A stretch of DNA of 20,056 nucleotides from a virus. Position 1 is the first letter of the stretch. The number at the start of each line of letters is the position of its first letter. Location: the IMG/VR virus record IMGVR_UViG_3300000651_000012, positions 1-20,056 of that record; one strand, 5' to 3'. Both the position numbers and the translations under genes were made by a program. The notes under the pieces were generated by a model. The model saw only the letters and a program-made list of their open reading frames with translations, made no database searches and had not been told where the DNA came from. This document shows, piece by piece, positions 2,098 to 19,120 of the stretch.

Positions 2098-2102
2098 ACG
2101 AA

Positions 2103-2443: not shown

Positions 2444-2455
2444 TATGGGGCGGTA

Positions 2456-2620: not shown

Positions 2621-2630
2621 CAGTATTTAC

Positions 2631-2672: not shown

Positions 2673-2705
2673 GCCAGCACTGCTGGACTAGAAAGGAATG
2701 GAACA

Positions 2706-3692
2706 ATGGCAAGACCTACAATAGTAGGAGACAGACGTGTAGAGTTTGACATGAGTCAAGTTAGCATAGCCAATTTGACTATACCTAAAATGCGTGAAGC
2801 CATCATGACTAATATGCTATTGTCTGGTCCAGGTTTATATGAAGAATACATGCCTAGTCCACAACAACTAGAGCGTATCAATTTGTGTGCGCAACTTGCT
2901 ATCAAGAGTGGTCAAGTAATTGATTTTGGCTACTGGCCTAACGAGATGATCAAGGATACCAGTCTAAGGTCGGGTAAACTTTATAACGACGGTGCTCTGG
3001 GTATGCCGTTCAGTTCTCCTTGGATTTTTGTCCATTCCTGGGATTCACCAGACTCTATGGAATACAGAAAATCAGATAAGCCAGTAACGGTTGCTTATCT
3101 GGTCGATCCAGAGAATGATGAACTTGGTTGTGGATTTCAAGCCTTGGAAATGGATGCCTTCAATATCGCTGGTCTCTTTACACTCGGTGTTGGGGACAGA
3201 TTGGTATACAATCCAGAACCAGGTTCTGAAAAATATAATGTGGCAGTTATTGCAGCTCACAAAAGATTTCCTTTGGCTGAAATTGGGATGCCAGAGGCGC
3301 TTCAAGCGCAAATGACTGATAGTCATGCTGCATGTAATGTTCTTGATCCGCTGATGACGGCTTTGATGATTCTCAATACTCGTGGTGTTAGATCAGAAAC
3401 GGTAACACCATCCGAGAAACTCAACAAGGCAAGAATCAAGAATGGCAAATATCCTATACCACCATATAAAGTAGTTGACAGTACAGGATATGTAACAGCG
3501 TATCAAGCGCGCCAGGAGAAAAGACCTGCTTCTGGCGGGACACACGCTAGTCCTGCGCCACATATACGAATGGGTCATTGGCGTAATTTTGTGACTGGTA
3601 ATCGAAGTTGGATACGTGATACACTCGTTAATGTCCCTCCAGAATTGAGAGACAAGTTCTTATCAACTAGAACACACTACAAAACGAAGTAA
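2706..3692 (+). CDS. Conserved hypothetical phage protein (328 aa)
   Basis: The ATG at 2706 directly follows a leader copy; earlier in-frame codons from 2634 would translate the palindrome and are rejected. The protein is soluble with no membrane segment. A large N-terminal part (about 1-235) has mixed alpha/beta character. A low-complexity linker (about 262-285, rich in Arg, Ala, Ser, Gly, Pro) follows. The C-terminal segment carries GHWRNF...GNRSWIRD (about 288-305), resembling an R-x-GHWR motif I recall at the C-termini of other hypothetical phage and plasmid proteins. A palindromic element related to the intergenic ones (3509-3538) lies in frame within the linker. Function unknown. Confidence 0.75.
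   Translation: MARPTIVGDRRVEFDMSQVSIANLTIPKMREAIMTNMLLSGPGLYEEYMPSPQQLERINLCAQLAIKSGQVIDFGYWPNEMIKDTSLRSGKLYNDGALGMPFSSPWIFVHSWDSPDSMEYRKSDKPVTVAYLVDPENDELGCGFQALEMDAFNIAGLFTLGVGDRLVYNPEPGSEKYNVAVIAAHKRFPLAEIGMPEALQAQMTDSHAACNVLDPLMTALMILNTRGVRSETVTPSEKLNKARIKNGKYPIPPYKVVDSTGYVTAYQARQEKRPASGGTHASPAPHIRMGHWRNFVTGNRSWIRDTLVNVPPELRDKFLSTRTHYKTK
3509..3538. repeat. Palindromic element inside a coding region
   Basis: GCGCCAGGAG (3509-3518) and CTTCTGGCGGG (3529-3539) repeat the layout of the intergenic elements at 2-30 and 2636-2665. CGCCAG (3510-3515) pairs with CTGGCG (3532-3537). It is translated as ARQEKRPASGG in a low-complexity linker, as expected if such an element was inserted in frame. 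Confidence 0.5.
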
Positions 3693-3702
3693 CTCATATG
3701 AG

Positions 3703-3744
3703 AGTAGCCATAGTAATATGGCTACTGTCACCTGGGTTACCAGG
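3703..3744 (+). other. Two tandem perfect hairpins
   Basis: AGTAGCCATA (3703-3712) pairs perfectly with TATGGCTACT (3717-3726) around GTAA. CCTGG (3731-3735) pairs with CCAGG (3740-3744) around GTTA. Both have the small loops of stable RNA tetraloop hairpins. They sit between two genes, ahead of a degenerate leader (GGAACAATGGAAAGGGAACA...). Confidence 0.6.
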
Positions 3745-3765
3745 GAACAATGGAAAGGGAACAAT

Positions 3766-4068
3766 ATGGCAGAAATACAATACATGGATTACGCCACTGC
3801 CAAGGAAATTGTCTCAAATTCAGAAGCGTATGATATTGATGATGTGTTAGTAGCAATAATGTTCATAATGTCATATTATTATGATGATATTACAATTGAG
3901 GCTATAAAAGATGCCACCAATGCTTTAGAATTGGTGGCAGAAAGGATAAACTGCCACGATCCTTATCAAGATAATCGTTACCCAGAACGTTCTTGTGATT
4001 TCTGCAAACGATTGTATTGTGGCCCATCATTGTATTGCAGCCTAAAGTGTGCACTAGATGATGCGTAA
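3766..4068 (+). CDS. Small protein with C-terminal zinc finger (100 aa)
   Basis: It starts MAEIQYMDYATAKEIVSNSE after AAAGGGAACAAT, which serves as ribosome binding site. An in-frame ATG at 3718 lies inside a hairpin and is rejected. The N-terminal two thirds are helical. The last 25 residues (SCDFCKRLYC...YCSLKC) hold five Cys residues in a C-x2-C ... C ... C-x3-C arrangement like MYM/FCS-type zinc fingers. Such fingers usually mediate protein or nucleic-acid binding. Function unknown. Confidence 0.7.
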   Translation: MAEIQYMDYATAKEIVSNSEAYDIDDVLVAIMFIMSYYYDDITIEAIKDATNALELVAERINCHDPYQDNRYPERSCDFCKRLYCGPSLYCSLKCALDDA

Positions 4069-4083
4069 AAAGGATAACTGACC

Positions 4084-4296
4084 ATGAGTAGATACGGCAC
4101 TGAAGTAAGAACAGCTGTAGGCGCAACTGTAATTGATGCTTTTCGTAATGTTGTTCCAATACATTTGCGCAATCTTGGTATTGGTAAATTAGAGGTCAAA
4201 GTTGTAACAACAGGTGTTATTCAACTAAAGATATGGGGCATAAATAATCCTTTGCCTGCTTATTACACAATAAAAATAACAGAGAATTATACATGA
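4084..4296 (+). CDS. Hypothetical protein (70 aa)
   Basis: Starts MSRYGTEVRTAVGATVIDAF, with AAAAGGATAA upstream as ribosome binding site. A helical first half is followed by strand-like segments (KLEVKVV, VIQLKIWG, YYTIKI). No Cys and no membrane segment. No family recognised. It overlaps the next gene as ATGA (4293-4296), implying translational coupling. Confidence 0.65.
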   Translation: MSRYGTEVRTAVGATVIDAFRNVVPIHLRNLGIGKLEVKVVTTGVIQLKIWGINNPLPAYYTIKITENYT

Positions 4297-4490
4297 TTAC
4301 TTGGTTGATGTTTCTTATCTGCTCAGCAGGAGATTGTCATACGATAACTCCTATTGACAGGCCATTTATGGGAACAAGTGCCTGTTTCCATGAAGGAATG
4401 ATAATTACACCATCATGGGAAGATGCACATCCTGGATGGAAAGTATCAAAAGTCTTGTGTAGAACTGGGGAACGCTCACAAGAACACTGA
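4293..4490 (+). CDS. Small Cys-containing, possibly exported protein (65 aa)
   Basis: It begins MITWLMFLICSAGDCHTITP. The first 12 residues are hydrophobic but lack a basic start, so export is possible but uncertain. Four Cys residues (about 10, 15, 31 and 56) are well placed for disulfides. The ending DAHPGWKVSKVLC has the look of a conserved small phage protein I recall only vaguely. Coupled to the upstream gene through ATGA. Function unknown. Confidence 0.6.
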   Translation: MITWLMFLICSAGDCHTITPIDRPFMGTSACFHEGMIITPSWEDAHPGWKVSKVLCRTGERSQEH

Positions 4491-4496
4491 TCATTT

Positions 4497-4546
4497 CTCC
4501 TGGCGTGCGAGCGCCAGGAGTATTTGCCAGATTAATAGTGTCTGGC
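4497..4546. repeat. Perfect inverted pair of the GCCAGGAG motif, plus second hairpin
   Basis: CTCCTGGCG (4497-4505) and CGCCAGGAG (4512-4520) are perfect 9-base inverted repeats around TGCGAG, so the dispersed motif occurs here in both orientations. GCCAGA (4526-4531) with TCTGGC (4541-4546) makes a second stem. The leader variant TTAGAAAGGAGCAAAACA follows, ending at the ATG at 4565. As the 5' region of a DNA-binding regulator it could also be an operator. Confidence 0.65.
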
Positions 4547-4564
4547 TTAGAAAGGAGCAAAACA

Positions 4565-4984
4565 ATGGTAACATCTAGTTCAAATCCACACCCACCAAAT
4601 TTGAGCGAAACTTTGTTGACTGCTATATACAATGGTAAATATGACACTGAGGTAACAAAAAAAGTAGCAAAACGACTTGGAGTTCATAACTCAGCATTAT
4701 GGGCTTGGCTTCACAATAAAGGCCAACCTAGTGTAGCAAACGCCAAGAAACTATCTGAGTGGTATAACATTCCTATGGACCAATTGAGAGTTGAGGTTGC
4801 TGTTCCTAGACCTGGTCCTATTGTTACCTACAAAAAGAATAGAAAACGCAGAAACATATCAGAACATAAAGATGTATTGTTTGATCAAGTCGGTGACAAA
4901 TACAGATTCACATGCGACATAATGATTGATAATGTCCAGGATGTATTTGAGCTAATGAAGATTGTGGCGAAATACACAAAGTAA
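4565..4984 (+). CDS. Helix-turn-helix (XRE/Cro-like) regulator (139 aa)
   Basis: Starts MVTSSSNPHPPNLSETLLTA after the leader variant. Residues about 27-75 (TEVTKKVAKRLGVHNSALWA...KLSEWYNI) read as an XRE-type helix-turn-helix: V-A-K-R-L-G-V then the recognition helix. A basic linker (KKNRKRR) and a C-terminal alpha/beta segment, possibly for dimerisation, follow. The likely role is a phage transcriptional regulator. The perfect inverted repeat at 4497-4520 is a candidate autoregulatory site. A terminator-like structure lies just downstream. Whether it is a lysogeny repressor or an early-gene switch cannot be told. Confidence 0.65.
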   Translation: MVTSSSNPHPPNLSETLLTAIYNGKYDTEVTKKVAKRLGVHNSALWAWLHNKGQPSVANAKKLSEWYNIPMDQLRVEVAVPRPGPIVTYKKNRKRRNISEHKDVLFDQVGDKYRFTCDIMIDNVQDVFELMKIVAKYTK

Positions 4985-5077: not shown

Positions 5078-5584
5078 ATGCAAGATGAAAGAATAAAAGC
5101 AATCACAGACAAAGCCAAAGAAATGAAGGATCTAGATATTGAAATTGAAAAACTCAGAGAAGCACTAGCAGTAAAAGAGAAAAACTTCAATTATATCTCT
5201 GAGGTAGAATTACCAGAAATGATGGGAGATATAGGTCTCAGTCAATTTGTATTAACTGATGGGACTAAATTGAGCGTAAGTCCTGTCCTCAAAGTATCAG
5301 TGCCCAAGTATAAAATGAATGATGCTAACAAATGGTTAGTTGAGAATCAATATGATGGAATGGTAAAGACAAGTCTGGAGTTCCCCAGAAGCGTTCCAGA
5401 TTATGCCATCAATCAGATTATACAATTCATTTTATCACAAGGATACTACTGTGAAACAGAAAGGAAAATACATTGGCAGACACTCAACAAATGGGCTCGT
5501 GAAATGGAACTGGAGGGCGAAGTGATACCTGAAGACATCTTCAATGTTTTCCGCAGCAACAAAACTGTAATTGAAAGGAAATAA
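5078..5584 (+). CDS. Conserved phage coiled-coil protein of the replication module (168 aa)
   Basis: It begins MQDERIKAITDKAKEMKDLD. Residues 10-40 form a coiled coil with Leu/Ile heptads. Then comes LPEMMGDIGLSQFVLTDGTKLSV, a pattern (E.LP..M...G...F.L.DG.K..V) that I associate with a widespread phage family of unknown function near ssDNA-binding and recombination genes. The C-terminal part is helical. It is first in the long + strand replication block, 30 bases after the attenuator-like structure, with AAGGAACACACA upstream of the ATG. Confidence 0.65.
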   Translation: MQDERIKAITDKAKEMKDLDIEIEKLREALAVKEKNFNYISEVELPEMMGDIGLSQFVLTDGTKLSVSPVLKVSVPKYKMNDANKWLVENQYDGMVKTSLEFPRSVPDYAINQIIQFILSQGYYCETERKIHWQTLNKWAREMELEGEVIPEDIFNVFRSNKTVIERK

Positions 5585-5586: not shown

Positions 5587-6192
5587 ATGACAGACATACC
5601 CGATACAATTCCTATGGATCCTGTATTGTCTGCAATTTCTGAAAGGATAGTCTTATCACTAAAAGTTCTAATGAGAGCAAAAAAAAGAGTGCTAGAAGAA
5701 AGTATAAAGGTTGGCAATGCATTAAATGATGCAAATGAAAGAATTCAGCAAAAGAAAGGAGATAGTGATTTCTATTGGACGTATAGAAATTATCTCAAAT
5801 CTATAGGTATGAATAGTAGAACTGCAGCAACATATAGAAAGGTTGCTAAAGGTGTAAAAGAACACAAATTGAATATTGAAGAGCTTATAAGGGATGGAAT
5901 TACACTCAGACAAGTTCATCATAGAATTGTACAGAGAGAAAAAATTGCTCGTGGTGAATCATTAAGCAGATCATATGCATCACCAGATGTTTCAACTTTA
6001 TCAGTAACATTGACTGCAGAACATCACCAAAGAATAAAAAAGAATTGTATAGATTTAGGATTGACTCAACAAGATGCTGTAGAAGAATTTTTGGCTGATT
6101 ATTGGTCTGATTTCTATGAAGCAAAAGTAGAAGAATTGAAAAAGAGATCAGAAAAACATAACGTATCATCATCACTTGGAAGGAGTCACTAA
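5587..6192 (+). CDS. DUF3102-like protein (201 aa)
   Basis: Residues about 30-85 (a helix with G-x-x-L-N-D-A-N-E, then W..YL..IGMNSRTAATYRKVAKG) resemble DUF3102 proteins of plasmids and phages. Those proteins have a helix-rich, DNA-binding-like layout, including a motif where the protein senses or binds DNA next to the replication machinery. The C-terminus (about 135-175) has a second small helical domain of ribbon or HTH type. Good ribosome binding site (GAAAGGAAATAACA) two bases after the upstream gene. The stop and next start share a base (TAATG). Similarity is from memory, so the name is tentative. Confidence 0.55.
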   Translation: MTDIPDTIPMDPVLSAISERIVLSLKVLMRAKKRVLEESIKVGNALNDANERIQQKKGDSDFYWTYRNYLKSIGMNSRTAATYRKVAKGVKEHKLNIEELIRDGITLRQVHHRIVQREKIARGESLSRSYASPDVSTLSVTLTAEHHQRIKKNCIDLGLTQQDAVEEFLADYWSDFYEAKVEELKKRSEKHNVSSSLGRSH

Positions 6193-7043
6193 TGGTAACC
6201 CGCAAAAGGCAAATTCGTATGGACAGCACAACCGAGCAACTTCCAGCAACACTAACTGCTGAGGAAGAAGAACTAATCAAACTATCACAAAGAAACACAA
6301 AGTTTGAAAGAAATGACCTTATCATTCCATTACTCAAAGTAATGCAACCATCAAGTCCAGAAGTATTGGAGGGTGGAGCACAATATGTTCCTGGCGCTAG
6401 ACCTGGCATGTTTTACAATACATCATCCGGTAAGCTTACTCCTGGCCAGGAGGGGATGCTATGTTGTATTATTGGTCATCAACGTAAAGTGATGGAGTGG
6501 ATACCAAGAACAGCAGGTGGAGGTCTAGTAAAGAGATGGGGTATGGATAATGGTTGGAAAACACTATGTGATCCTGATCAAATAGATGCCCTTAATCCAG
6601 TAACAAGAGAAGGCCACACTATAGATAAACGTAGGGAATTTTTGATATTTGATATTGACCCTAGCACTGGTAATACTGATCCTAGTTTCTTCAGTATGAG
6701 AGGCACTGCTATGAGAATAGCAGCGCAACTTTCAAATATGCTTGTTGGAAACAAAATAAGATTGGGTGATGGCAGAATTATCACGCCGCCATATTATTAT
6801 TTTGTGTACAAATGCACTTTGGAAAGGATGACCAATGATCAGAATCAAATGTGGTGGCTTCCCAAATTCACTAAACATGTAAAGGATGGCCAACACGTTA
6901 AAACACAGGATATGCCCAATGGCAAGGAAATATATGAACAAGCTAAAATATTCCAAGAACAATTCTTGGAAGGAACAATTCAACAAGAATCATATGAACA
7001 ACCCATAAAAGATGAATTGGAAGGGGATGCTGTCACTTTCTAA
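6192..7043 (+). CDS. Putative phage ssDNA-binding / replication protein (283 aa)
   Basis: Starts MVTRKRQIRMDSTTEQLPAT behind GGAAGGAG at good distance; an ATG ten codons in (6219) is a weaker alternative. The pattern F.RNDLIIPLL...QPSSPEV......Y..GA..G...N..SG......GM...I.....VMEWIPR is one I recall from a phage family often annotated as an ssDNA-binding or recombination-associated protein. The acidic C-terminus (DELEGDAVTF) fits an SSB-like tail. CTCCTGGCCAGGAG, a perfect 14-base palindrome of the dispersed motif (6439-6452), lies within it. Stays tentative without a search. Confidence 0.5.
   Translation: MVTRKRQIRMDSTTEQLPATLTAEEEELIKLSQRNTKFERNDLIIPLLKVMQPSSPEVLEGGAQYVPGARPGMFYNTSSGKLTPGQEGMLCCIIGHQRKVMEWIPRTAGGGLVKRWGMDNGWKTLCDPDQIDALNPVTREGHTIDKRREFLIFDIDPSTGNTDPSFFSMRGTAMRIAAQLSNMLVGNKIRLGDGRIITPPYYYFVYKCTLERMTNDQNQMWWLPKFTKHVKDGQHVKTQDMPNGKEIYEQAKIFQEQFLEGTIQQESYEQPIKDELEGDAVTF
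6439..6452. repeat. 14-base palindrome fusing two copies of GCCAGGAG
   Basis: CTCCTGGCCAGGAG reads the same on both strands: two overlapping opposite copies of the dispersed octamer inside a coding region (translated as TPGQEG). Confidence 0.85.
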
Positions 7044-7096: not shown

Positions 7097-7579
7097 ATGA
7101 CTGCCGCAGGTCCATATATAGAAAATCTACAAGAAATAAAAGTTGAACTAAAGCAACTACGGACTATTATTGCCAAAGTGGCTCGTCAAGTTGATGAGAT
7201 GTATAATTGGGATTATGAGGAAACTACGAGTGGAGGTAATGTAACTCAAGTAGAGGATAGACATGCTCATGATGAAGCAGAAATTAAGGCACGTGGACAA
7301 CGCATTCCATATAACCTTATTTCTGATCCAGTAGATGTATCACAATTTCGTGATTTCATTTACAATGCTAAATCAAGATATAAGATGTTCACAGAGGATG
7401 AACTGAGGTATCTTGACTTTGCTGACAAAAACTTTGAGGATATTAGATTGACCAGAAAACATATTGGCATTCTTCAAGGTGTATATTTCAAATTGTATAG
7501 CAAACCATGGCCATTTAAATCCAAACAAGGATATATGTATAAGCTTGACAATGAAATGATATGGGAGTGGTTCGAATGA
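7097..7579 (+). CDS. Hypothetical protein with N-terminal coiled coil (160 aa)
   Basis: Starts MTAAGPYIENLQEIKVELKQ after CAGGAGAATTAA. Residues 8-38 form a coiled coil. A disordered acidic stretch follows (ETTSGGNV...DRHAHDEAE). The C-terminal domain of about 80 residues is Tyr- and Phe-rich (FRDFIYNAKSRYKMF...LRYLDFADKNF) and ends in an aromatic tail. No family recognised. Its stop overlaps the oxidoreductase start as ATGA, indicating coupling. Confidence 0.6.
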   Translation: MTAAGPYIENLQEIKVELKQLRTIIAKVARQVDEMYNWDYEETTSGGNVTQVEDRHAHDEAEIKARGQRIPYNLISDPVDVSQFRDFIYNAKSRYKMFTEDELRYLDFADKNFEDIRLTRKHIGILQGVYFKLYSKPWPFKSKQGYMYKLDNEMIWEWFE

Positions 7580-8487
7580 TAATCATTGGCGCAGGATTGG
7601 CTGGGCTACTGGCGGCCAGGAGGTTCGCAAATTATAATCCTGTTGTTCATGAGAAACAGGATGATTTGCCAAATAATCATAGTGCTTTGCTACGATTTAG
7701 AACTCCAGCAGTAGGGGAGGCTATTAATGTGCGATTCAAGGAAGTAATTGTACATAAAGGAGTATTGTTAGAAGATGAAGCCACAATTACAAATTTTCCA
7801 ACCGTCAAAGAGTACAATGCTTATTCTTATAAATCAACAGGGGGCATTTACGCCGGCAGATCTATCACCAATATTAAACCTGTTAAACGATACATTGCTC
7901 CCAGTAATTTCGTTCGAACATGTAGTATTGGAGCTAATGTCAGATACAAGAGCAATATTGAAAGCCTCCATAAAGGGGATGAAACCATTATCTCAACAAT
8001 CCCTATGCCTGCCTTGATGGAAATATTACAATATCCAAAAATGCCTAAATTTGTAACAAGTAAAATATGGACAATCAATTGTGATTTAGACAACGTAGAT
8101 ACCTATCAAACTGTGTATATACCATACAATCATTTTGAACCTTACAGAGTAAGTATTACTGGGAGAAGAATGACAATTGAGTTTACTAAGCAACCTGATA
8201 TTCCATCATACTATATTGAGAAATATTGTGATATATTAGCCATATCATCCTCATATAGAAATGTGGAAATGAGGGAACAAATATATGGCAAAATAGTTCC
8301 AATAAATGAATATGAGCGCCAGCAGTTCATTTTATGGGCTACAGATAAATTTGATATTTACTCATTAGGCAGATACGCAACTTGGAGACAAATATTACTT
8401 GATGATGTAATAAAAGACATTGATGTAATCAGTAGATTTATAACCCAAAGAGTTGGATATGATCGTCAACTCAACCTCAAATACTGA
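7576..8487 (+). CDS. FAD-dependent oxidoreductase (303 aa)
   Basis: MIIIGAGLAGLLAARRF is a Rossmann dinucleotide-binding start (G-x-G-x-x-G at residues 5-10, then a helix). Later come the TIISTIPMPAL strand (about 135-145) and a C-terminal LGRYATWRQILLDDVI segment, the place where FAD-binding amine-oxidase or UDP-galactopyranose-mutase-like enzymes close over the cofactor. ATG 7576 is preferred over 7561 because it gives an ATGA overlap and starts the fold directly. It sits 12 bases before the ThyX-like gene, whose family also uses FAD. The substrate is unknown; a role in nucleotide or base chemistry is inferred from context. GCCAGGAG (7615-7622) lies just after the Gly motif. Confidence 0.75.
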   Translation: MIIIGAGLAGLLAARRFANYNPVVHEKQDDLPNNHSALLRFRTPAVGEAINVRFKEVIVHKGVLLEDEATITNFPTVKEYNAYSYKSTGGIYAGRSITNIKPVKRYIAPSNFVRTCSIGANVRYKSNIESLHKGDETIISTIPMPALMEILQYPKMPKFVTSKIWTINCDLDNVDTYQTVYIPYNHFEPYRVSITGRRMTIEFTKQPDIPSYYIEKYCDILAISSSYRNVEMREQIYGKIVPINEYERQQFILWATDKFDIYSLGRYATWRQILLDDVIKDIDVISRFITQRVGYDRQLNLKY

Positions 8488-10476: not shown

Positions 10477-10631
10477 TAAATCCCTGTAAAGAGCACCCTA
10501 ATTTTGATCATATGGCTGAACCAGAACAAAGACACTATGTATTGTGTCCATTGTGCGCACAAGCTTTACGCAAACTAGAATACAAGAGGCAAAAAGAACA
10601 ATATGAAAACTCAACTACAAATAAGAACTGA
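10473..10631 (+). CDS. Small Cys/His protein (52 aa)
   Basis: ATG at 10473 overlaps the exonuclease stop (ATGA) and opens a 52-codon frame beginning MINPCKEHPNFDHMAEPEQR, with YVLCPLCAQALRKLEYKRQ in the middle. C-x2-H plus C-x2-C is a likely zinc site, followed by a basic helix. It overlaps the polymerase start by 29 bases. The coupled start, zinc pattern and tight fit between two certain genes support it. Function unknown. Confidence 0.6.
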   Translation: MINPCKEHPNFDHMAEPEQRHYVLCPLCAQALRKLEYKRQKEQYENSTTNKN

Positions 10632-13389
10632 GTTTTCATTCCGTTGGGCATTTGGGCCTGTCCGCAAAGTTGTGGGCAGGCTCAAAGAGCTTCAGTGTAA
10701 ATCAGCAGCAATTACTGATCGAAATTCTACATTTGGTCACATCGCATGGAATAAGCATTGTAAAGCAGCTGGTATTAAGCCAATATTTGGTTGTGAATTT
10801 GCTTTCATAGAAGACATAAACGTCCGCCAGAAGAAACAAAATCTATTCTGGTTACCAGTAATTGCTAAAACAAATGCTGGCCTCAGAGAACTATATGCAA
10901 CATTAGAAGAAGCAACACACAATTTTCATTATGTGCCACGATTGCCTTTCAGCAAAATAGATGATTTTAGTCAAGATGTAATAGTGTTTAGCGGAATTTC
11001 AGGTCTAGGCAACGGTGTTAAGCTTCCCACGCATGTATATAGATCGGGCCATCCCGCGACCTCACATGTATTATTATCAGAAAATATAGTGCCAGTTTCA
11101 GATAACTATATGATCACAACAGCAGATCGTTCAGCTTATGAAATATTATCAGGTAGAAATAAGAATGATCGACCATCTCCAATGCATATATTAGATGAAT
11201 GGGAGCTAAGAAATGACATAGAATTGGAGGATGATGCATTTGAATTAGCAGATAAATTAGCAGAAGAATGTACAGCAGAAATACAAATTGCTACAAACAT
11301 CAAATATAAATCAAACTTGACACTGTTAGAGATGTGCATTCTTGGTGCAAGGGAGCGCGGCCTGGAGCTTAATGACACATATAAAGAGAGACTGGACTAT
11401 GAACTTAAGTTGATCATTGACAAGGGTTATGAGGACTATTTCTATGTAATAGCAGACATGGTGCGATATGCAAAGAATCATATGGTTGTTGGCCCGGCAC
11501 GCGGCTCTAGTTGTGGTTCTCTTGTCTGTTATTTGCTGGGCATTACTGATATTGATCCTTTACCTCATGGTCTTATTTTTGAAAGATTCATTGACATTAC
11601 TCGATTTGATTTGCCTGACATTGATATTGATTTTCAAGACAATAAAAGAGAAATGGTATTCAATTATATTCAAGACAAATACGGCCAGGAGAATGTGGCC
11701 AGATTGGGAACAGTGCTAAAATACAAGCCTAAATCAGCAATATCTGATGCTGCTAAAGCTTTACAAATACCAGATTGGGAAACAAAAGCAGTCAAAGATT
11801 CAATGCTGAAACGATCCAGTGGAGATTCACGTGCTGGATTTGCTATACTTGACACCTTTTCAGAGCTAGAAACAGGTCAACGTTTTATTGAGAAATATCC
11901 AGCAATGAAAATAGCTGGAGATTTAGAGGGACATGCACACTATACAGGTAAACATGCTGCTGGCGTGATTATCACGAATGAACCGCTCATAAATTATGTT
12001 GCTAAAGATGCAAGAACAAATACAGTTCAAATAGATAAAATAGATGCAGAGAACATCAATCTTATGAAGATTGATGCTCTGGGTCTCAAAACATTAACAA
12101 TTATTTCTGATTGCCTGGATTCAATAGGTTGGAAATACAATGATTTGCTTAAACATCCTCTAGATGATGATAAAGCATATGAAGTATTGCGCAAATTTCG
12201 TTTCTGTGGCATTTTCCAATATGAAGGTCAGGCTCTGCAAACCCTGGCCAGGAGAGTTCACATTGATAGATTTGATGATATATCATGTTTAACAGCACTA
12301 GCTAGACCTGGACCCTTTGCTTCTGGTGCTGCGAATGAATGGGTCCAACGACGCATGGGCAAGACCCAAGTAACATATCAACATCAAACTATGGAGAAAT
12401 ACACACGTGAAACCTATGGGCTTATTGTTTATCAAGAACAAGTCATGCTATGTGTTCGTGAGATTGGCCTACTCTCGTGGGAGGATACGTCCACGCTACG
12501 CAAAGCTATGTCAAAGTCGTTCGGTCTTGAATACTTTGATCAATTCTGGCAAAAATTTAGAAATGGCGCCGCCTCGCAAGGCATCACAGAAGAAATTTCC
12601 AGGAAGATTTGGGACTCTGTCAACTCATTTGGCTCGTGGGCTTTCAACAAGAGCCATGCGGTTGCATACGGCACGCTATCATATTTTTGTTGTGTATTGA
12701 AGGCACACTTTCCAATCGAATTTGCTCTTGCTGTTATTCGTAATACTCAAGATGTTATTGCAATCAAACGTTATCTCAGAGAACTAGACAGAGATGGATA
12801 TGAGGTAAAGAGTTATGACATTATGCGTAGTGAAGTATCATGGTCTTTCAAAGACAATGTATTCTTAGGCGGACTGACAAATATCAAAGGTATTGGAACC
12901 AAGAAAGCAGAGAAAATGCTCCTGGCGCCGCCTGACAATAGGCCCTTCATGGTGCCATATCCTATCATTACACCATATGACAATTTGTTTGAAGGCAGAA
13001 CTAGATTTGCTGATCTAATTGAAAATCCTCGCAAATATAATATTGTGCGGAACAAGAGATCAGATTTGATTGATATACATGATGAATATGAGGGTCCAGC
13101 AGTATTCATCGCCAAATTAATACACCGCAACGAGAGATCGCTTAATGAGGCAATGTTCTTAGTTCAGCGCAACAATGTCAAAGTTCCAATGGACAAATGG
13201 TTAAATATATTGTTGGAGGATGATACTTCCACAATATATGCCACAATCTCCAGATACAAATTTCCATCAATGGGAATAATGCTGCTTAACAAATACAATA
13301 CTGGAGACTGGTTTATCTGGGGCGGAACTGTCAAGAGTGGGAGACGCATGTATGTGGATCAATATAGGTTTATCGGGGCCGCGAGCTAG
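10603..13389 (+). CDS. dnaE: C-family DNA polymerase, DNA pol III alpha-like (928 aa)
   Basis: The order follows bacterial DnaE. First is an N-terminal PHP domain (to about residue 200), then the ARGSSCGSLVCYLLG segment (about 299-313). The catalytic triad is PDIDIDF (Asp 339 and 341) and KIDALGLKTL (Asp 491). GLIVYQEQVM lies near residue 607, and a helix-hairpin-helix (NIKGIGTKKAE) near 760. At 928 residues it is shorter than cellular DnaE (about 1,160) and ends soon after the fingers and HhH region. The PHP metal site looks dead: RTEFS replaces H-x-HTxYS-type residues and TDRN replaces TDHG. A separate DnaQ-like gene precedes it. The ribosome binding site is weak, so translation may depend on coupling. 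Two forward (11684, 12247) and one reverse (12919) motif copies lie inside. Confidence 0.93.
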   Translation: MKTQLQIRTEFSFRWAFGPVRKVVGRLKELQCKSAAITDRNSTFGHIAWNKHCKAAGIKPIFGCEFAFIEDINVRQKKQNLFWLPVIAKTNAGLRELYATLEEATHNFHYVPRLPFSKIDDFSQDVIVFSGISGLGNGVKLPTHVYRSGHPATSHVLLSENIVPVSDNYMITTADRSAYEILSGRNKNDRPSPMHILDEWELRNDIELEDDAFELADKLAEECTAEIQIATNIKYKSNLTLLEMCILGARERGLELNDTYKERLDYELKLIIDKGYEDYFYVIADMVRYAKNHMVVGPARGSSCGSLVCYLLGITDIDPLPHGLIFERFIDITRFDLPDIDIDFQDNKREMVFNYIQDKYGQENVARLGTVLKYKPKSAISDAAKALQIPDWETKAVKDSMLKRSSGDSRAGFAILDTFSELETGQRFIEKYPAMKIAGDLEGHAHYTGKHAAGVIITNEPLINYVAKDARTNTVQIDKIDAENINLMKIDALGLKTLTIISDCLDSIGWKYNDLLKHPLDDDKAYEVLRKFRFCGIFQYEGQALQTLARRVHIDRFDDISCLTALARPGPFASGAANEWVQRRMGKTQVTYQHQTMEKYTRETYGLIVYQEQVMLCVREIGLLSWEDTSTLRKAMSKSFGLEYFDQFWQKFRNGAASQGITEEISRKIWDSVNSFGSWAFNKSHAVAYGTLSYFCCVLKAHFPIEFALAVIRNTQDVIAIKRYLRELDRDGYEVKSYDIMRSEVSWSFKDNVFLGGLTNIKGIGTKKAEKMLLAPPDNRPFMVPYPIITPYDNLFEGRTRFADLIENPRKYNIVRNKRSDLIDIHDEYEGPAVFIAKLIHRNERSLNEAMFLVQRNNVKVPMDKWLNILLEDDTSTIYATISRYKFPSMGIMLLNKYNTGDWFIWGGTVKSGRRMYVDQYRFIGAAS

Positions 13390-13458: not shown

Positions 13459-13500
13459 CTTTTACGGCTCTAGCTACTAGTATAGCTAGAGCCGTAAAAG
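13459..13500. terminator. 18-bp perfect inverted repeat
   Basis: CTTTTACGGCTCTAGCTA (13459-13476) and TAGCTAGAGCCGTAAAAG (13483-13500) are perfect complements around CTAGTA. This is the longest perfect stem seen in the window. No clean U-tract follows on either strand, so an RNase III-type processing site or transcript-end stabiliser is as plausible as a terminator. A small hairpin AAGCT-ATGTAG-AGCTT (13441-13456) precedes it. The rest of the 134-base gap 13390-13523 shows nothing recognisable except AAGGAG before the next gene. Confidence 0.7.
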
Positions 13501-13523: not shown

Positions 13524-13790
13524 ATGAAGAGAAAATACAAAGGCAAACCGTTACTCAAGAAAACTTGTGAATATTGTCAAGAGTTTTATATAACACGTCG
13601 TGAAGAAGCAAAATTTTGTTGCACAAATCACAGAGTATTGTGGCACTATCATATGGATACTGGAACAGCAATTACAAAGAAGAATATTAGCATCAATTCA
13701 ATATGGCCAAAAGTTATTTCAACAAGAGATGATCATGGATTTGAAATATGTTTAAATCAAGATGGTAGTTACTTAATGAGATCATTATAA
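13524..13790 (+). CDS. Small zinc-finger protein (88 aa)
   Basis: Starts MKRKYKGKPLLKKTCEYCQE after AAGGAGAATTAAT. The first half is basic, with C-x2-C (15, 18), CC (32, 33) and NH (36): an FCS/MYM-like zinc site of the KFC...C kind. The second half has strand-like segments and no motif. Likely nucleic-acid or protein binding; no exact family. First gene after the strong 18-bp stem, so it may head a separate transcript with the iron permease-like and peroxidase genes. Confidence 0.65.
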   Translation: MKRKYKGKPLLKKTCEYCQEFYITRREEAKFCCTNHRVLWHYHMDTGTAITKKNISINSIWPKVISTRDDHGFEICLNQDGSYLMRSL

Positions 13791-14123
13791 ATGTTTGAAA
13801 ACATATCAAGAGTAATTGCTGAACATTGCGGCAGAGCCTATGCGTTCATTTTGTCTGTACTTGTTGTAGTAATTTGGGGAATAACTGGACCAATATTTCA
13901 TTATTCAGATACATGGCAACTCATCATCAACACTGGAACCACAGTTGTAACTTTTTGGCTAGTGTTTATTATTCAGTCTACACAGAATAGAGATCAAATA
14001 GCATTACAATTAAAACTTGATGAATTAATCAGAGCTACCAAAGGAGCAAGAGATGAGATAGCAGGCATTGAAGATAAAACTGAAAAAGAATTGCGTGATC
14101 TCAAAGGAGAACACGATGGATAG
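13791..14123 (+). CDS. Low-affinity iron permease-like membrane protein (110 aa)
   Basis: The run AFILSVLVVVIWGITGPI...SDTWQLIINTGTTVVTFW...FIIQSTQNRD...LQLKLDELIRATKGAR is the conserved core of PF04120 (low affinity iron permease) of bacteria. There are two membrane spans (about 17-37 and 47-67). The ...SDTWQL(I)INTGTT..TF..VF.IQ.TQNRD signature and a charged helical tail follow. Length fits short bacterial members. In bacteria the family is linked by name to iron transport, but bacterial function is poorly established. It starts right after the previous stop, with no strong ribosome binding site, so coupling is likely. A phage copy is unusual. Base composition matches its neighbours, so it is not a recent arrival. 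Confidence 0.85.
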   Translation: MFENISRVIAEHCGRAYAFILSVLVVVIWGITGPIFHYSDTWQLIINTGTTVVTFWLVFIIQSTQNRDQIALQLKLDELIRATKGARDEIAGIEDKTEKELRDLKGEHDG

Positions 14124-14340
14124 AAAAGCTGTAGAAGAGGCACTAGATGCTGCAATAAATAATTGCACTGAGCTTTTTGAACTAACTGGTAAGCCTAGTC
14201 CAGAGTTATTCTTTATGTCTGGACTCGCATCGTTTCTGATAACTATGAAAACAACTGCGCCAGAAATGCATGTAGATGAAATACTACAAGTTATGCGCAG
14301 TATTGCCATGAACAAACTCCATATGGGAACTGCCACATGA
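14116..14340 (+). CDS. Small helical protein (74 aa)
   Basis: Starts MDRKAVEEALDAAINNCTEL behind AAAGGAGAACACG, which sets this ATG rather than the in-frame 14068. Entirely helical in appearance, with no Cys cluster or membrane segment. No family recognised. It overlaps the permease gene by 8 bases and the peroxidase start by the ATGA overlap, so the three are probably translated as a unit. Confidence 0.65.
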   Translation: MDRKAVEEALDAAINNCTELFELTGKPSPELFFMSGLASFLITMKTTAPEMHVDEILQVMRSIAMNKLHMGTAT

Positions 14341-15785
14341 CACAATTGCTGAAAGAGTTCCGGTCATTAGATGGATCTGGTAACAATCTTAATAATCCAA
14401 GTGAAAATCAAACTGGCACTGGTGAACGAGAATTGTTGCCACGCGGGCCAGGAGTAGGAACTGGAACTAATGCTAGGCAAATCTCTAATGTCGTTTCTTC
14501 TGGGCCGCATGCCGATGATGCTAATCCTCAAGGATTAAGCGCCATGATGTATGTGTGGGGCCAATTCCTTGATCATGATATGGATTTGACACCGCAAGAT
14601 AATACAAATCATATTGACATAACGATACCTGCTGGTGATCCAACTAAGCCAGAAGGATCTGTTATATCATTGACTCGATTTATGTTACAAGATGGAACAG
14701 CCAAAAATACAGTAAGTGGATGGATTGATGGATCACAAGTCTATGGATCAGACACAAATACTGCAAATAGTCTCCGTTTGCCTGATGGACATTTGGCAAC
14801 CAGCAGTGGAAACAATTCACCAATTGTCAATGGCCATTTCGTCGCAGGAGATGTCAGGGTTGCCGAGAATCCAGACCTTACTAGCATCACCACTCTATTC
14901 GTCCGAGAACACAACCGATTGGTTGATCAGTTACACAGAGATAATCCCAGTTGGACGGGAGACCAATTGTATAATATGGGACGCGCAATTGTGGGTGCGG
15001 AAATAGAGAACATTACATATACTGAGTTTCTTCCACATCTCCTGGGCATGACAGCTATACCTGTATACACAGGATATGATCCTAGTGTAGATGCTAGAAT
15101 TACTGAAGAGTTTTCTACAACTACATTTAGATTTGGTCACTCGATTATTAGTGGTGTCGAAGAAAAGGTTGGTCCTGATGGAAAGGAGATAAGCAGTCAA
15201 AAACTGAGTGATGCTTTCAATGATACTCCTGCTGATGTAGAATCAGATGGTGGTGTTGAATCTCTCTTGCGCGGTATTACACGAGATTTATCTGTTACCA
15301 ATGATGTGTTTGTAATTAATGATTTGCGTAATTTACTTGCTGATTCTCCTGTATTTACTGATCTATTTGCAGTAGATATACAACGTGAGCGTGACCTGAA
15401 CATTAGCAATCTTAATCAAGCTAGAATTGCATTGGGACTAAAGCCATACGGATCGTTTAGCGATTTGACCACTGATCCTAATGTGCTAAACAATTTGATT
15501 AAGTCTTATAACTCTATTAATGATGTGGATCTCTTTATTGGAGGATTAGCTGAGCCGCATATTCAAGGTGCTATTGTAGGTGAGACGTTTAGGACTATGT
15601 TGACTAACCAGTTCATTGCACTAAGGGATGGTGATCGACTGTGGTGGCAAAATGCTGGATTTGATTCTGATACACAGAAGATGATCGCCAGTAGAACATT
15701 GGCTAATATACTTGACGATAATGCCAATGTAACAATACCAGGTAAAGATGTGTTCTTGGCAAGCAACCCAGTGGATGCTTCATAA
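14337..15785 (+). CDS. Animal-type haem peroxidase (peroxidase-cyclooxygenase family, 482 aa)
   Basis: A complete bacterial-style member of the animal haem peroxidase family. FRSLDGSGNNL opens the chain. WGQFLDHD (74-81) supplies distal Gln76, haem-linked Asp79 and distal His80. VRVAEN (173-178) supplies distal Arg174 and haem-linked Glu177. FVREHNRL follows. FRFGHS (264-269) supplies proximal His268. IQRERDLNISNLNQAR and RDGDRLWWQN are family landmarks. All expected catalytic residues are present, so an active enzyme oxidising halides or organic substrates with hydrogen peroxide is likely. No signal peptide is seen, so it would be cytoplasmic, released by lysis, or virion-borne. Coupled to the upstream gene (ATGA) and downstream gene (TAATG). 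This is a striking cargo for a phage. Confidence 0.9.
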   Translation: MTQLLKEFRSLDGSGNNLNNPSENQTGTGERELLPRGPGVGTGTNARQISNVVSSGPHADDANPQGLSAMMYVWGQFLDHDMDLTPQDNTNHIDITIPAGDPTKPEGSVISLTRFMLQDGTAKNTVSGWIDGSQVYGSDTNTANSLRLPDGHLATSSGNNSPIVNGHFVAGDVRVAENPDLTSITTLFVREHNRLVDQLHRDNPSWTGDQLYNMGRAIVGAEIENITYTEFLPHLLGMTAIPVYTGYDPSVDARITEEFSTTTFRFGHSIISGVEEKVGPDGKEISSQKLSDAFNDTPADVESDGGVESLLRGITRDLSVTNDVFVINDLRNLLADSPVFTDLFAVDIQRERDLNISNLNQARIALGLKPYGSFSDLTTDPNVLNNLIKSYNSINDVDLFIGGLAEPHIQGAIVGETFRTMLTNQFIALRDGDRLWWQNAGFDSDTQKMIASRTLANILDDNANVTIPGKDVFLASNPVDAS

Positions 15786-16024
15786 TGTCTAGAGCAGGAG
15801 AGAAAATAGCAGCAGGTAGAGAAATGCAAATGAGAATAGCAGAGGCAGAATCAACACTGCGATTACTTGCATATCAAGTTGGGATAAAATGCAAACAGTG
15901 TAATGTTGTTATTAAAGATGGAGAACACATTGGCGGTATATCATTCTTAGCCATTGATGGAGTTAACTTTATGGCAAGTCCATATTGTGTAAATTGTACA
16001 GAAAGGATTTGTCATGATCTTTAA
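15785..16024 (+). CDS. Small Cys4 zinc-ribbon-like protein (79 aa)
   Basis: Starts MSRAGEKIAAGREMQMRIAE, sharing a base with the peroxidase stop (TAATG). An N-terminal helix is followed by CKQC and, about 30 residues on, CVNC: a zinc-ribbon or treble-clef-like pair. Function unknown. No ribosome binding site of its own, so it depends on translation of the peroxidase. It overlaps the helicase start by 11 bases. Confidence 0.65.
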   Translation: MSRAGEKIAAGREMQMRIAEAESTLRLLAYQVGIKCKQCNVVIKDGEHIGGISFLAIDGVNFMASPYCVNCTERICHDL

Positions 16025-17441
16025 TACACAACCATATAAGCACCAAGTAGAAGCCATAAACACAGCTTGGCTACGTCCTGGCTTTGCCTATTTCTTAGAA
16101 CAAGGCACAGGCAAAAGCAAAATCATTATTGATGAAATAGTTAATTTGATAGAACTCGGAGAGATCAATTGTGCCATCATTTTGGCTCCCAATAATGTTC
16201 ATGTAAATTGGAAATATGAATTTGAAAAACATTGGCCAGATTATGATAAATTCGCAATACAAGTATGGCATTCTAACAAGAAAAAAGTTCTTCGTGAAGA
16301 AGAAACCAGATCAATATTAAAGTCAGGAAAAGTTCTCATATTCCTGATGAATATTGAAGCAATATCTACAACATCTGGAAGAGAATATGTCATACGTATT
16401 CTCAGAGCATGTAGACAAACATATATGGCAATAGATGAAAGCCACAAGATTAAAACTCCTGGCGCATTGAGAACTAGAGCAGCAATAGAATTTAGCAGAT
16501 TTGCTAAGTTCAGACGTATTGCTACAGGAACAGAAGCAGAAGAAGGATTGGAGAACCTTTATACACAATTCAGGTTTCTCGATCCAAATATCATTGGAAT
16601 AAGATCATATACTGCATTTTGTCGTATGTTTTGTATAATGGGAGGATATGAAAACAGAGAAATCAAAGGTTATCATAATCAGGAGATGCTGGCCAGTAGA
16701 ATAGCACCTCACATCTTCAATCGGCGCAAGAAAGATTGTTTGGATTTACCAGACAAGGTATATGTTACTCATCAAATAGGAATGACGCTTGAACAGCATA
16801 AATTATATACACAACTTGAAGAAGATTTAATTTTGGAGCTTAAAAGTGGACTCATAGTAGATGCCACGATAGCAATAACAAGAATGATGCGTCTACAACA
16901 AGTATTGTGTGGGCATATTAATAGTTCAGATGCTGAATCCACAAAAAATTCAGAGATCATACCATCTCATAGGGCTGATTTTGTTGCTGATATCGTTGAA
17001 GACGCTAGCAGTAAAGTCATTATATTCTGCCGATTTGTCAAAGATGTCGAGCTAGTAATTACAGCACTCTCCAATAAAGGCATCCGAGGGATAGGGGTGT
17101 CCGGTCTAATTGAGAGCGATCGTAGACTGTGTGAGATAAATAGATGGAGAACAGACCCAAGTATTAAAGCATTAGCAATTACAACCGCTACTGGCGGTGT
17201 GGGGCTTACGTTGAATGAAGCCTCAACGACAATATTCTATAGCAATAGTTGGTCATCCACAGATAGGATACAAGCCGAAGATCGTAACCACCGCATCGGC
17301 CAGGAGAACAAAGTAACGTATCATGATATTGTAGTTCATAATAAGATTGATCATAGATTATTGAAGGCTCTACAAAGCAAAAAATCAGCAGCACTACAAT
17401 TTAGACAAATGGTTGATGTAATTCGTTTCCTTGAAGAATGA
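16014..17441 (+). CDS. SNF2-family DNA helicase/translocase (475 aa)
   Basis: An SNF2-type superfamily 2 ATPase with both RecA-like lobes. Q-motif-like PYKHQ (7-11), Walker A GTGKS (31-35), DESH (141-144) in place of DEAH, ATGTE..EGLENLY as motif III, TGGVGLTLNEAS as motif V, and QAEDRNHRIGQ (about 420-430) as motif VI, containing the arginine finger. It probably moves along or remodels duplex DNA during phage replication or repair. The ATG at 16014 follows GAAAGGATTT at good distance. Motif III has TEAE in place of the usual TP. GCCAGGAG (17299-17306) encodes the GQE of motif VI. Last gene of the + strand block; its stop abuts the opposite-strand stop. Confidence 0.9.
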   Translation: MIFNTQPYKHQVEAINTAWLRPGFAYFLEQGTGKSKIIIDEIVNLIELGEINCAIILAPNNVHVNWKYEFEKHWPDYDKFAIQVWHSNKKKVLREEETRSILKSGKVLIFLMNIEAISTTSGREYVIRILRACRQTYMAIDESHKIKTPGALRTRAAIEFSRFAKFRRIATGTEAEEGLENLYTQFRFLDPNIIGIRSYTAFCRMFCIMGGYENREIKGYHNQEMLASRIAPHIFNRRKKDCLDLPDKVYVTHQIGMTLEQHKLYTQLEEDLILELKSGLIVDATIAITRMMRLQQVLCGHINSSDAESTKNSEIIPSHRADFVADIVEDASSKVIIFCRFVKDVELVITALSNKGIRGIGVSGLIESDRRLCEINRWRTDPSIKALAITTATGGVGLTLNEASTTIFYSNSWSSTDRIQAEDRNHRIGQENKVTYHDIVVHNKIDHRLLKALQSKKSAALQFRQMVDVIRFLEE

Positions 17442-17573
17442 TCATTTCTTCCTTTTGGGCAAATGTTTTATGCCTCGTTTCTTATCAGCATTGTGCCATT
17501 CTTTGGCCCATTTTGCACCTTGTTTAGCTTTCATTGCTACAAAGCGAGCTTGTGCTTTACTTTTGCTGGGCAT
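17442..17573 (-). CDS. Small basic phage protein (43 aa)
   Basis: Reads MPSKSKAQARFVAMKAKQGA and ends LPKRKK. Strongly basic. The MP(S/A)KSKAQ-R-F opening is typical of small phage proteins I recall near packaging and structural genes, similar in style to DUF3008. Likely nucleic-acid-binding or virion-associated, but no role is established. Its stop is back to back with the helicase stop, sharing the palindrome TGATCA (17439-17444), so the two transcription blocks converge here without any gap. It overlaps the upstream gene by 17 bases. Confidence 0.7.
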   Translation of the reverse strand: MPSKSKAQARFVAMKAKQGAKWAKEWHNADKKRGIKHLPKRKK

Positions 17574-17841
17574 GATTGTGATCTAACATGTTATGGATTG
17601 TGTCACATGTTTCTACAACAGACAAAAATTTACCATTGGTTGTAACAACAATACATTTTACTGTGGGTGGAAAATGTTTAACTATGTCACCCTTAATGGG
17701 TTCTCGCAGTGAGCTTATCTCGTTAATATTGACAAAGGATCGCTGGCCATATGGGCCATGCAATTCCAAAAACTCAACCTTTATCAATATAACAATTGAT
17801 GCTGCAAAAAGCAGCGCTTTATCTTTTATTTGATCCAGCAT
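17557..17841 (-). CDS. FlbD-like small protein with hydrophobic N-terminus (94 aa)
   Basis: The likely start is MLDQIKDKALLFAASIVILI, inside the end of the upstream gene. A longer start at 17898 would overlap that gene by 80 bases and is disfavoured. Residues 9-21 are hydrophobic but short. After that, the pattern F.N..EI.SLREP...........C.VV.TNGKFLSVVET.D.I...L resembles the small beta-rich FlbD fold of flagellar regulators, seen also in phage proteins near structural genes. The function in phage is unknown. No clear ribosome binding site, so coupling is probable. Confidence 0.5.
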   Translation of the reverse strand: MLDQIKDKALLFAASIVILIKVEFLELHGPYGQRSFVNINEISSLREPIKGDIVKHFPPTVKCIVVTTNGKFLSVVETCDTIHNMLDHNHAQQK

Positions 17842-18046
17842 CAGATGTTTCACGTTTGCTGAATCGTTCCATAGTTGCCCATAACTTTTGCTGAGCAACT
17901 ATTTGAGCTTCTACTTCTGGCGGGTTGAGTTTGCCTTGTAAAGCTAGTTCACAAGATTTCTGCATTTGCTCTAATTGTTCTGGAGTAATAAGATTTGGAA
18001 GAACAGGATCAACTTTAGGCTCAACTTTTTCAGGATTATCTGACAT
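17819..18046 (-). CDS. Small hydrophilic phage protein (75 aa)
   Basis: Starts MSDNPEKVEPKVDPVLPNLI after AGGAGACAATC, a good ribosome binding site. The N-terminus is Pro- and Glu-rich and probably disordered. The rest is one long helix (EQLEQMQKSCELALQGKL...AQIVAQQKLWATMERF). No family recognised. It lies downstream of the tail-fibre-like gene in the same transcript. Confidence 0.65.
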   Translation of the reverse strand: MSDNPEKVEPKVDPVLPNLITPEQLEQMQKSCELALQGKLNPPEVEAQIVAQQKLWATMERFSKRETSDAGSNKR

Positions 18047-18055: not shown

Positions 18056-19120
18056 CTATATAAGCATACCATAAGTCGCAGCATCAACTATTCCTGCAAT
18101 TGTTCCAGGAATAGAACTGTCGCCTGTGCCAGACATATTAATTATAGCACCAGTATTTACAATGTATTTTCTGCCAACTATAGTTCCAGTGAAAGTTGCG
18201 CTCCAAGCATTCATATTTCCGTTACTTTCACAAAGATAAAAGCAACCACTAAAAGTTGGATTTCCTGTGATAGTAATTGTATTTCTCGCATTGGTAAAAC
18301 TTCCACCTGTAGTTGCTCTTACGTGATAAGGTGAAGCACCATAAATTGAATATTTACCTGAAGCTCCCTGCCAAGGATAAACAACACCACTACCTGAAAC
18401 AAGTATTTGCATTTGTGAGCAAGGACCAAATGCTATTGTATCGTGAACAATAGCACCACCACGATCAGCAAAAAAACCAATACCAGCAGGAGTATAATCG
18501 CCTGTTGATCCAGTCGCCTCTACTGAAAAACCTTGAGCATATAAATTGGCACCACCACTTGCAAAGACAGCAGCACCATTAGCATTTTTAATTATGTATG
18601 ATCTAGGGTTTGCTATATCTCCTTGAACAATTAAATTGCCATTAATAATTGGTTGATTATGATAAAATGGATCATAAGTTCCAGGAACCTTTAATTGAAC
18701 AATAATGTTGTGACCACCACCATCAATAGTAGCATAGACTGTATTTATTGCTTTCTGAACAGTTTTCCAAGGATTGCCTGTTGTACCATTACCAGTAACA
18801 TCATTACCATTAACCACATCAACATAAAGTGCCAAATCTGCAGTAAGCTTAGTTCTCTGCAGACTCCTAATAGCATTCCACAATTGTGTTAAATCATTAT
18901 ATACAGGCGTCATACTAGCGCCAAGTATACAATTGGCTATTTGACCATATAACCAATTGTCTTTATCATCTACCCATTGAAACATACTATTGAATTGTTC
19001 AACAGTAGGAGGCGCCTGACCAATAAATGCCCAACCTGCATCCGCTTGTGCAAATGTAGGATCATCAGTTAATCCACTCTTTGCCCATTCATGGCCAAAA
19101 CGATCCCACCAAGATGGCAT
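18056..19120 (-). CDS. Tail-fibre / tailspike-like protein with beta-helix (354 aa)
   Basis: Starts MPSWWDRFGHEWAKSGLTDD after AGGGAGAACGAAT. Residues 1-90 look like a virion-attachment segment. From about 97, LYVDVVNGNDVTGNGTTGNPWKTVQKAINTVY is the classic opening of a right-handed beta-helix (pectate-lyase-like) found in phage tail fibres and spikes. Gly-, Asn- and Thr-rich strands continue to the end. The C-terminus (GTIAGIVDAATYGMLI) resembles the ending of the partial protein at the window edge (ALASLITALAAYGLI), suggesting a shared role at virion fibres. It probably binds host surface glycan. No catalytic residues can be assigned. Confidence 0.75.
   Translation of the reverse strand: MPSWWDRFGHEWAKSGLTDDPTFAQADAGWAFIGQAPPTVEQFNSMFQWVDDKDNWLYGQIANCILGASMTPVYNDLTQLWNAIRSLQRTKLTADLALYVDVVNGNDVTGNGTTGNPWKTVQKAINTVYATIDGGGHNIIVQLKVPGTYDPFYHNQPIINGNLIVQGDIANPRSYIIKNANGAAVFASGGANLYAQGFSVEATGSTGDYTPAGIGFFADRGGAIVHDTIAFGPCSQMQILVSGSGVVYPWQGASGKYSIYGASPYHVRATTGGSFTNARNTITITGNPTFSGCFYLCESNGNMNAWSATFTGTIVGRKYIVNTGAIINMSGTGDSSIPGTIAGIVDAATYGMLI

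Follow-up and report, generated by a model that had tools for sequence, protein, structure and literature searches.

The peroxidase gene and its phage setting

The DNA analysed here, referred to as the window, is a linear-ended virus record of 20,056 bases. On its plus strand, an open reading frame at 14337..15785, with its ATG at 14337 and a TAA stop at 15783-15785, encodes in 482 codons a haem peroxidase that consists of the bare catalytic domain. The Pfam profile PF03098 (An_peroxidase) matches residues 8-466 of the 482-residue protein with positions 1-522 of its 530 (E 2.3e-109; 366.8 bits against a cut-off of 25 bits), while no PHROG match was obtained at E up to 0.001. An earlier note, made from the letters of this DNA, had claimed a complete animal-type haem peroxidase borne by a phage. 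The almost full-length profile match, the structural model described below and the phage genes on either side bear this out, and the coordinates, frame and length given for the gene were exact.

The gene occupies a slot between two phage replication genes. The left border is a phage DNA polymerase III alpha gene (10603..13389, plus strand; phrog_405, E 2.5e-228), 54-77% identical in 16 close IMG/VR relatives, and the right border is an SNF2-type helicase gene (16014..17441, plus strand; phrog_62, E 1.6e-108), 53-66% identical in close relatives. A perfect 18-bp inverted repeat with a 6-nt gap (13459..13500) lies between the polymerase gene and the slot and is not among the predicted terminator-like sites, which are no commoner in the window than in shuffles. 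The slot begins with a small gene with a zinc-finger-like cysteine pattern, seen by eye (13524..13790, plus strand), that has counterparts of 38-55% identity beside the polymerase in related phages and no Pfam or PHROG match. It abuts the gene of a small membrane protein of the PF04120 'Iron_permease' family (13791..14123, plus strand; E 4e-45; phrog_3485, E 1.3e-29). This in turn overlaps a 74-residue gene (14116..14340, plus strand), for which we chose the ATG at 14116 although the listed ORF begins at a TTG at 14068. The stop of the 74-residue gene overlaps the peroxidase start in an ATGA (14337-14340), and a TAATG (15783-15787) couples the peroxidase to a 79-residue gene (15785..16024, plus strand), taken like the 74-residue gene from the ORF list, without a Pfam or PHROG match, that overlaps the helicase start. 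Both couplings had been noticed before. As is typical of a moron, the peroxidase gene stands between phage genes, those matching phrog_405 and phrog_62, on one contig.

When the polymerase was used as the query, IMG/VR yielded 49 relatives, including the 16 close ones (54-77%). In most of the close relatives the genes run in the window's order from about position 2.2 kb to the polymerase or beyond, as far as their stretches permit; L097 has fewer shared genes and L100 a different gene order. Polymerase is followed by helicase on the fetched stretch of 10 of the 16, and no helicase match was seen on the fetched stretches of the other six. The spacing between the two genes is 869 bp in six records (L090-L094 and L099, which have like match figures), 1,177 bp in L095, 276 bp in L096, 198 bp in L100 and about 9 bp in L097, compared with about 2.6 kb in the window. 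The stretch between these two borders is variable, and the peroxidase is part of the cargo that it holds.

The phage nature of the contig is firm. PHROG matches identify DNA polymerase III alpha, an exonuclease subunit, ThyX and a helicase in the window. One 52-kb relative carries portal, capsid, maturation protease, tail sheath and tape-measure genes, so that the window's phage group is of the contractile-tail type, as judged by this one genome. The only tail-type gene recognised in the window, at 18056-19120, is on the minus strand, opposite to the peroxidase. For the portal, capsid, polymerase and ThyX proteins compared, similarity at 25-55% extends to phages of many bacteria, with proteobacteria in most of the best rows.

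Other features of the window were recorded in passing. Positions 81-4577 hold seven copies of a 36-nt unit with the core CTAGAAAGGAATGGAACAATGG, each placing an ATG at or inside an ORF start region, and in three cases (101, 958 and 2192) this is the listed start; the repeat looks like a ribosome-binding or leader cassette. Two proteins that resemble gp33 and gp34 of phage Pam3, with PHROGs of unknown function, are encoded at 5078-5584 and 6192-7043 and are conserved in most close relatives. A 308-residue protein at 7561-8487 (phrog_4828, unknown function; no Pfam match) is conserved in relatives that are free of peroxidase and starts with what we take to be a GxGxxG-type nucleotide-binding motif like that of FAD enzymes. 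The larger genes change from plus to minus direction within 17441-18046, near a terminator-like hairpin at 17800-17816 (plus strand).

Active site and predicted fold

The residues expected of a working haem pocket are in place. The distal motif G75-Q76-F-L-D79-H80-D81 (14559..14579, plus strand) conforms to GQxxDHD, given in passages of PMC4420034 as the distal signature of the superfamily, with the catalytic His, an ester Asp and a Ca2+ Asp. The distal RxxE pair, Arg174 and Glu177, lies at 14856..14867, and an RFGH motif at 15129..15140 supplies Arg265 and the proximal haem ligand His268 (both plus strand). By alignment, Asn360 (15414..15416, plus strand) is the expected hydrogen-bond partner of His268. 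Among 61 aligned bacterial relatives, Gln76, His80, Arg174, Glu177, Arg265 and His268 are each present in all 61, Asp79 in 60, and Asn occupies position 360 in 57. A calcium loop is predicted at Ser127-Ser133 (14715..14735, plus strand), where S127, W129, D131 and S133 align with the Ca2+ ligands Thr140/Trp142/Asp144/Ser146 listed for CyanoPOX in part of PMC11776367; Asp81 joins this set. The earlier note had named Gln76, Asp79, His80, Arg174, Glu177 and His268 along with the landmarks REHNRL (190-195) and RDGDRLWW (430-437). All are present, the six residues on family columns of the 61 relatives, and to them the present analysis adds the calcium loop, Asn360 and the missing C-terminal tail discussed below.

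Conservation extends beyond these motifs. The phage protein keeps 41 of the 42 columns that are invariant among the 61 bacterial relatives, the exception being N347D, and 127 of the 150 columns that are invariant among the 16 bacteria of its own clade. Peroxidase domains of the inactive, dual oxidase type are described in the pertinent part of PMC4420034 as devoid of the proximal His; the phage protein has H268. Its N-terminus shows no hydrophobic stretch by eye.

An AlphaFold2 model built from a 62-row alignment reached a mean pLDDT of 91.2 and a pTM of 0.92, so that the structure prediction previously suggested as a check yielded a confident model on the bacterial lactoperoxidase/myeloperoxidase fold. 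Foldseek and VIA-align place it on 8s6c, Dictyostelium peroxidase A (DdPoxA), myeloperoxidase (MPO) and LPO. The nearest structure is 8s6c, the bacterial lactoperoxidase CyanoPOX (Z 51.6, rmsd 1.6 over 472 residues, 36% identity), followed by DdPoxA (Z 47.3) and MPO (Z 44.2), which together with the pLDDT indicates the peroxidase-cyclooxygenase superfamily fold. Sequences of solved structures gave 64 distinct matches at E up to 0.001, again led by 8s6c (E 3e-78). The assignment of the predicted protein to the enzymes of this superfamily is about as secure as it can be made from a sequence and a model.

Bacterial origin and occurrence in phages

A scan of a species-genome collection returned 299 relatives; the 80 best were retained. 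The best 23 of the 299 (L007-L029) are 46-51% identical to the phage protein and belong to Bradyrhizobium, to Belnapia and Paeniroseomonas (Acetobacteraceae), and to metagenome bins of Synechococcus, Cyanobium and Mycobacterium/Mycolicibacterium. The tree, a test proposed earlier, was built from 61 of the best 80 loci and the phage protein, 19 having been dropped by hand as near-duplicates or for size. The phage row belongs to a clade of 17 rows, 16 of which are bacteria from L007-L029, at a support of 100/100. Its end branch is long, at 0.99 changes per column. The separation of these 16 from the phage row has a support of 86/46, too weak for a donor to be named.

The phage protein differs from these relatives at both ends. 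In 22 of the 23 closest loci the domain is followed by 123 residues or more, compared with 8 residues after position 474 in the phage protein, and most of the 23 also carry an extra N-terminal part that the phage protein lacks. These counts cover 70 of the best 80 loci, 10 having been omitted by hand, among them several that lie close to the end of a contig. By eye the tails of the close relatives end in an RTX-like manner, and Pfam found RTX repeats in four of the eight close relatives scanned, in one of them just under the cut-off. The C-terminal calcium-repeat or secretion tail that marks bacterial RTX-type secreted peroxidases is absent from the phage protein. In the remaining 47 loci, which are more distant, the tail has a median length of 60 residues. 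Three of the 70 loci (L029, L059 and L076) are short at both ends and, because such core-only bacterial versions exist, trimming within the phage lineage is likely, short of shown. From sequence comparison, the peroxidase was apparently acquired from bacteria and cut to its catalytic core.

The composition of the gene is that of its surroundings. Its GC is 0.411 and its GC3 is 0.296, compared with a GC of 0.60-0.73 in the 23 nearest bacterial loci, and its codon-usage z is -1.25 relative to 21 other window genes, within a range of -5.3 to 4.2 for the 22 genes, which were chosen by hand from the ORF list of the window. The AT-rich, phage-like composition reported earlier is thus borne out. Given this phage-like GC3 and codon usage and the GC-rich nearest bacterial loci, the gene has therefore long resided in AT-rich phage DNA. 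That 482 codons have stayed open and the active site intact through about 50% divergence points to selection, as does the retention of 41 invariant columns along so long an end branch. An assembly chimera of host and phage DNA was considered and rejected as unlikely, in agreement with the earlier note, as both borders are syntenic, the genes overlap and the codon usage is phage-like.

The gene was not seen in other records of the window's phage group. A PF03098 search of related phages gave no match in 26, where the control genomes were likewise silent, and none in a further 23, where all four known carriers included as controls were matched. The peroxidase is thus in 1 of 50 related phage records, the window included, many of the other 49 being fragments, so that a record without the gene is not the same as a phage without it. 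The earlier suggestion to look for homologues in other phages met with a divided outcome, negative in these 49 records and in a phages collection of 50,697 records (tblastn, E up to 0.01) and positive for one distant group. IMG/VR scans with the protein alone and with alignment A1 gave no confirmed relative, and those with alignments A3 and A4 gave one, the distant contig L136. Relatives can escape such scans, which use six short peptide patterns for a single protein and two for an alignment, and the window's own record was possibly excluded, so that it provided no positive control.

The L136 match led to nine IMG/VR contigs (L136, L144-L146 and L154-L158), a second group that is unrelated to the window's phages. 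The other eight are 62-77% identical to L136, and eight of the nine have long matches, the ninth a 63-residue fragment at a contig end. They are not independent: shared ORFs of L145 and L146 are 99-100% alike, and L155-L157 have the same match figures. Peroxidase genes lie at L136:4436-6319, L144:4992-6842 and L146:4764-6767. Pfam covers part of the domain in this group, profile positions 151-327 at most. The proteins match PF03098 as the window protein does and are 29% identical to it in the aligned part. The three that were aligned keep QxxDHD, RxxE and RFGH and have a twin-arginine-like signal start by eye. A capsid gene (PF05065) is present in five of the nine records (three of four and two of five) and a prohead protease in three of the four searched for it. 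In L146 the capsid gene precedes the peroxidase by about 2.8 kb, and glycosyltransferase, epimerase and methyltransferase genes follow the peroxidase immediately. A capsid match is absent from four records (G053, G057, G058 and G059), and G053, at 73.7 kb, also lacks a prohead-protease or terminase match among the families searched; some of these contigs may for this reason be host or prophage-edge DNA. The four stretches measured have a GC of 0.67-0.73, and a guess from GC alone would make the hosts GC-rich and perhaps actinobacterial. None of the phages collection matched the second-group protein.

It seems that phages acquired the peroxidase family on at least two occasions. We tentatively propose, with somewhat less than even credence, that animal-type haem peroxidases are a recurrent and unreported redox cargo of phages with at least two entries, one bare and cytosolic in contractile-tail phages and the other exported by a twin-arginine route in capsid-bearing ones. 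If so, phages would employ the same peroxide chemistry as neutrophils and milk, to the benefit or the harm of bacteria, and the second group offers natural replicates for testing what use the enzyme is to phages. Our literature search, which left most subscription-journal papers and bioRxiv preprints outside its range, found no report of a phage animal-type haem peroxidase in titles or the opening lines of abstracts; in passages of PMC13390420, PMC10284932 and PMC13233415, 'peroxidase' stands for something other than such a gene. A viral structure library contained a haem peroxidase of Orpheovirus IHUMI-LCC2 (A0A2I2L5A1; TM 0.86, 25% identity), a Yasminevirus alpha-dioxygenase (E 6.1e-28) and the 308-residue A0A7T7DFZ6 (E 5.4e-9, TM 0.35 over the query). 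Within the literature and databases searched, a bare-domain peroxidase as phage cargo appears new; the superfamily itself is known.

Possible roles and known counterparts

Enzymes of this superfamily split H2O2 at the haem, and the resulting Compound I oxidises small donors or halides. The members found in milk and in white blood cells produce germ-killing oxidants. Three roles had been suggested for the phage enzyme: removal of host peroxide, attack on competitors after lysis, and modification of the virion or biofilm. We give an even chance to the first, in which the gene is auxiliary, moron-type cargo of bacterial origin and its product a soluble, cytosolic peroxidase that uses host haem and consumes H2O2 in the infected cell. 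A phage ancestor would have taken the catalytic part of a bacterial gene for a secreted RTX-type peroxidase. The protein would be made with the replication genes, fold in the cytosol and take up host haem b and Ca2+. His80, Arg174 and Gln76 would then split H2O2 to give Compound I on a haem held by His268 and Asn360, and small phenolic donors or iodide, thiocyanate or bromide would re-reduce the haem. The likeliest benefit would be consumption of H2O2, and of the radicals that it feeds, while the cell is intact, with left-over enzyme set free at lysis. Consumption before lysis is preferred because the gene stands among replication genes.

By analogy, a bare domain could plausibly be active in the bacterial cytosol, since CyanoPOX, when produced in E. 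coli, is soluble, is loaded with haem and acts on H2O2, iodide and phenols (PMC11776367, in part), and the peroxidase portion of MopA oxidises Mn(II) when separated from the rest of its protein (PMC6247904, in part). Among the reducing substrates tested with CyanoPOX, iodide gave the best efficiency, and the KM for H2O2 was 0.48 mM, according to the kinetic passages of PMC11776367. Several observations count against peroxide consumption by the phage enzyme. One is the N347D change. Another is by analogy: the CyanoPOX KM of 0.48 mM is high for a scavenger of everyday cell peroxide. A third is that none of the 49 related phage records carries the gene, so that any benefit would be conditional. 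If the enzyme is active, it would be the first phage member of the myeloperoxidase/lactoperoxidase superfamily within the literature searched, and peroxide control in infected cells or oxidant release at lysis could be directly tested. From the bare gene it can also be seen how much of a larger, secreted peroxidase of bacteria is sufficient for retention.

Release at lysis is the main rival to peroxide consumption, although we consider it unlikely. The enzyme would be idle in the cytosol and, once released, would make oxidants from environmental H2O2 and halides or thiocyanate against competing bacteria or other phages, lysis standing in for the secretion system of the bacterial relatives. The C-terminal tails of the close relatives, several of them RTX-like, resemble those of exported proteins, and two long peroxidases among the more distant ones have type I secretion genes next to them. 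Gln76 is present, and the distal glutamine seems to be involved in halide binding according to part of PMC4420034; the preference of the related CyanoPOX for iodide, cited above, fits as well. However, the gene is placed with replication genes, and neighbours would gain as much from the release as the phage's own progeny.

The PF04120 gene, two genes upstream in the same gene run, raises the prospect of an iron- or manganese-related module for metal or haem handling, for instance through Mn(II) oxidation of the kind that the peroxidase part of MopA performs. This is distinctly improbable. A 49% homologue of the PF04120 protein occurs in six close relatives beyond the helicase, on the opposite strand and without any peroxidase, so that a shared iron module finds no support in the gene arrangement of the relatives. 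MopA proteins, moreover, are long peroxicins (PMC6247904, in part) of a different branch, and MopA activity was not seen in Pseudomonas putida GB-1 in the portion of PMC11930936 that concerns it. Very improbable, too, is that the gene is captured cargo of no use to the phage or an artefact of chimeric assembly from host and phage DNA, for which the presence of the gene in this contig alone of the 50 related records would speak; the syntenic borders, the overlapping or abutting junction genes, the phage codon usage and 482 codons without a stop despite roughly 50% divergence all run counter to it. That the protein is packaged or displayed on the virion, acting for example on the host surface or matrix as adhesive members of the superfamily, the peroxinectins (PMC4420034, in part), might suggest, is barely credible, as Pfam finds no domain beyond the peroxidase and the gene lies in the replication block, with the one recognised tail-type gene on the opposite strand. 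Given this location and the missing tail of the relatives, a virion or biofilm role looks least likely of the three suggested earlier.

The phage protein can be set beside several known peroxidases. It shares with MPO and LPO the fold (MPO Z 44.2), the distal Gln, His and Arg, the proximal His and Asn, and the Asp and Glu ester sites. In contrast to these enzymes, it has no signal or pro-peptide, and its Asn178 aligns with the MPO methionine that bonds to the haem. The Orpheovirus protein is likewise virus-encoded and has the same fold, but its virus is a giant virus of eukaryotes and not a phage. A plasmid-encoded peroxidase of Limimaricola variabilis (WP_322338017.1) has the full domain, with 38% identity over 98% of the query; it differs in its length of 643 residues and, by eye, in its C-terminal glycine- and aspartate-rich repeats. 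CyanoPOX of Cyanobacterium sp. TDX16 (8s6c), as described in the structural part of PMC11776367, has the same haem-pocket residues and Ca2+ loop and is a near-bare catalytic domain. It is bacterial and carries a C-terminal PEP-CTERM sorting segment, whereas the phage protein has no such segment and ends 8 residues past position 474.
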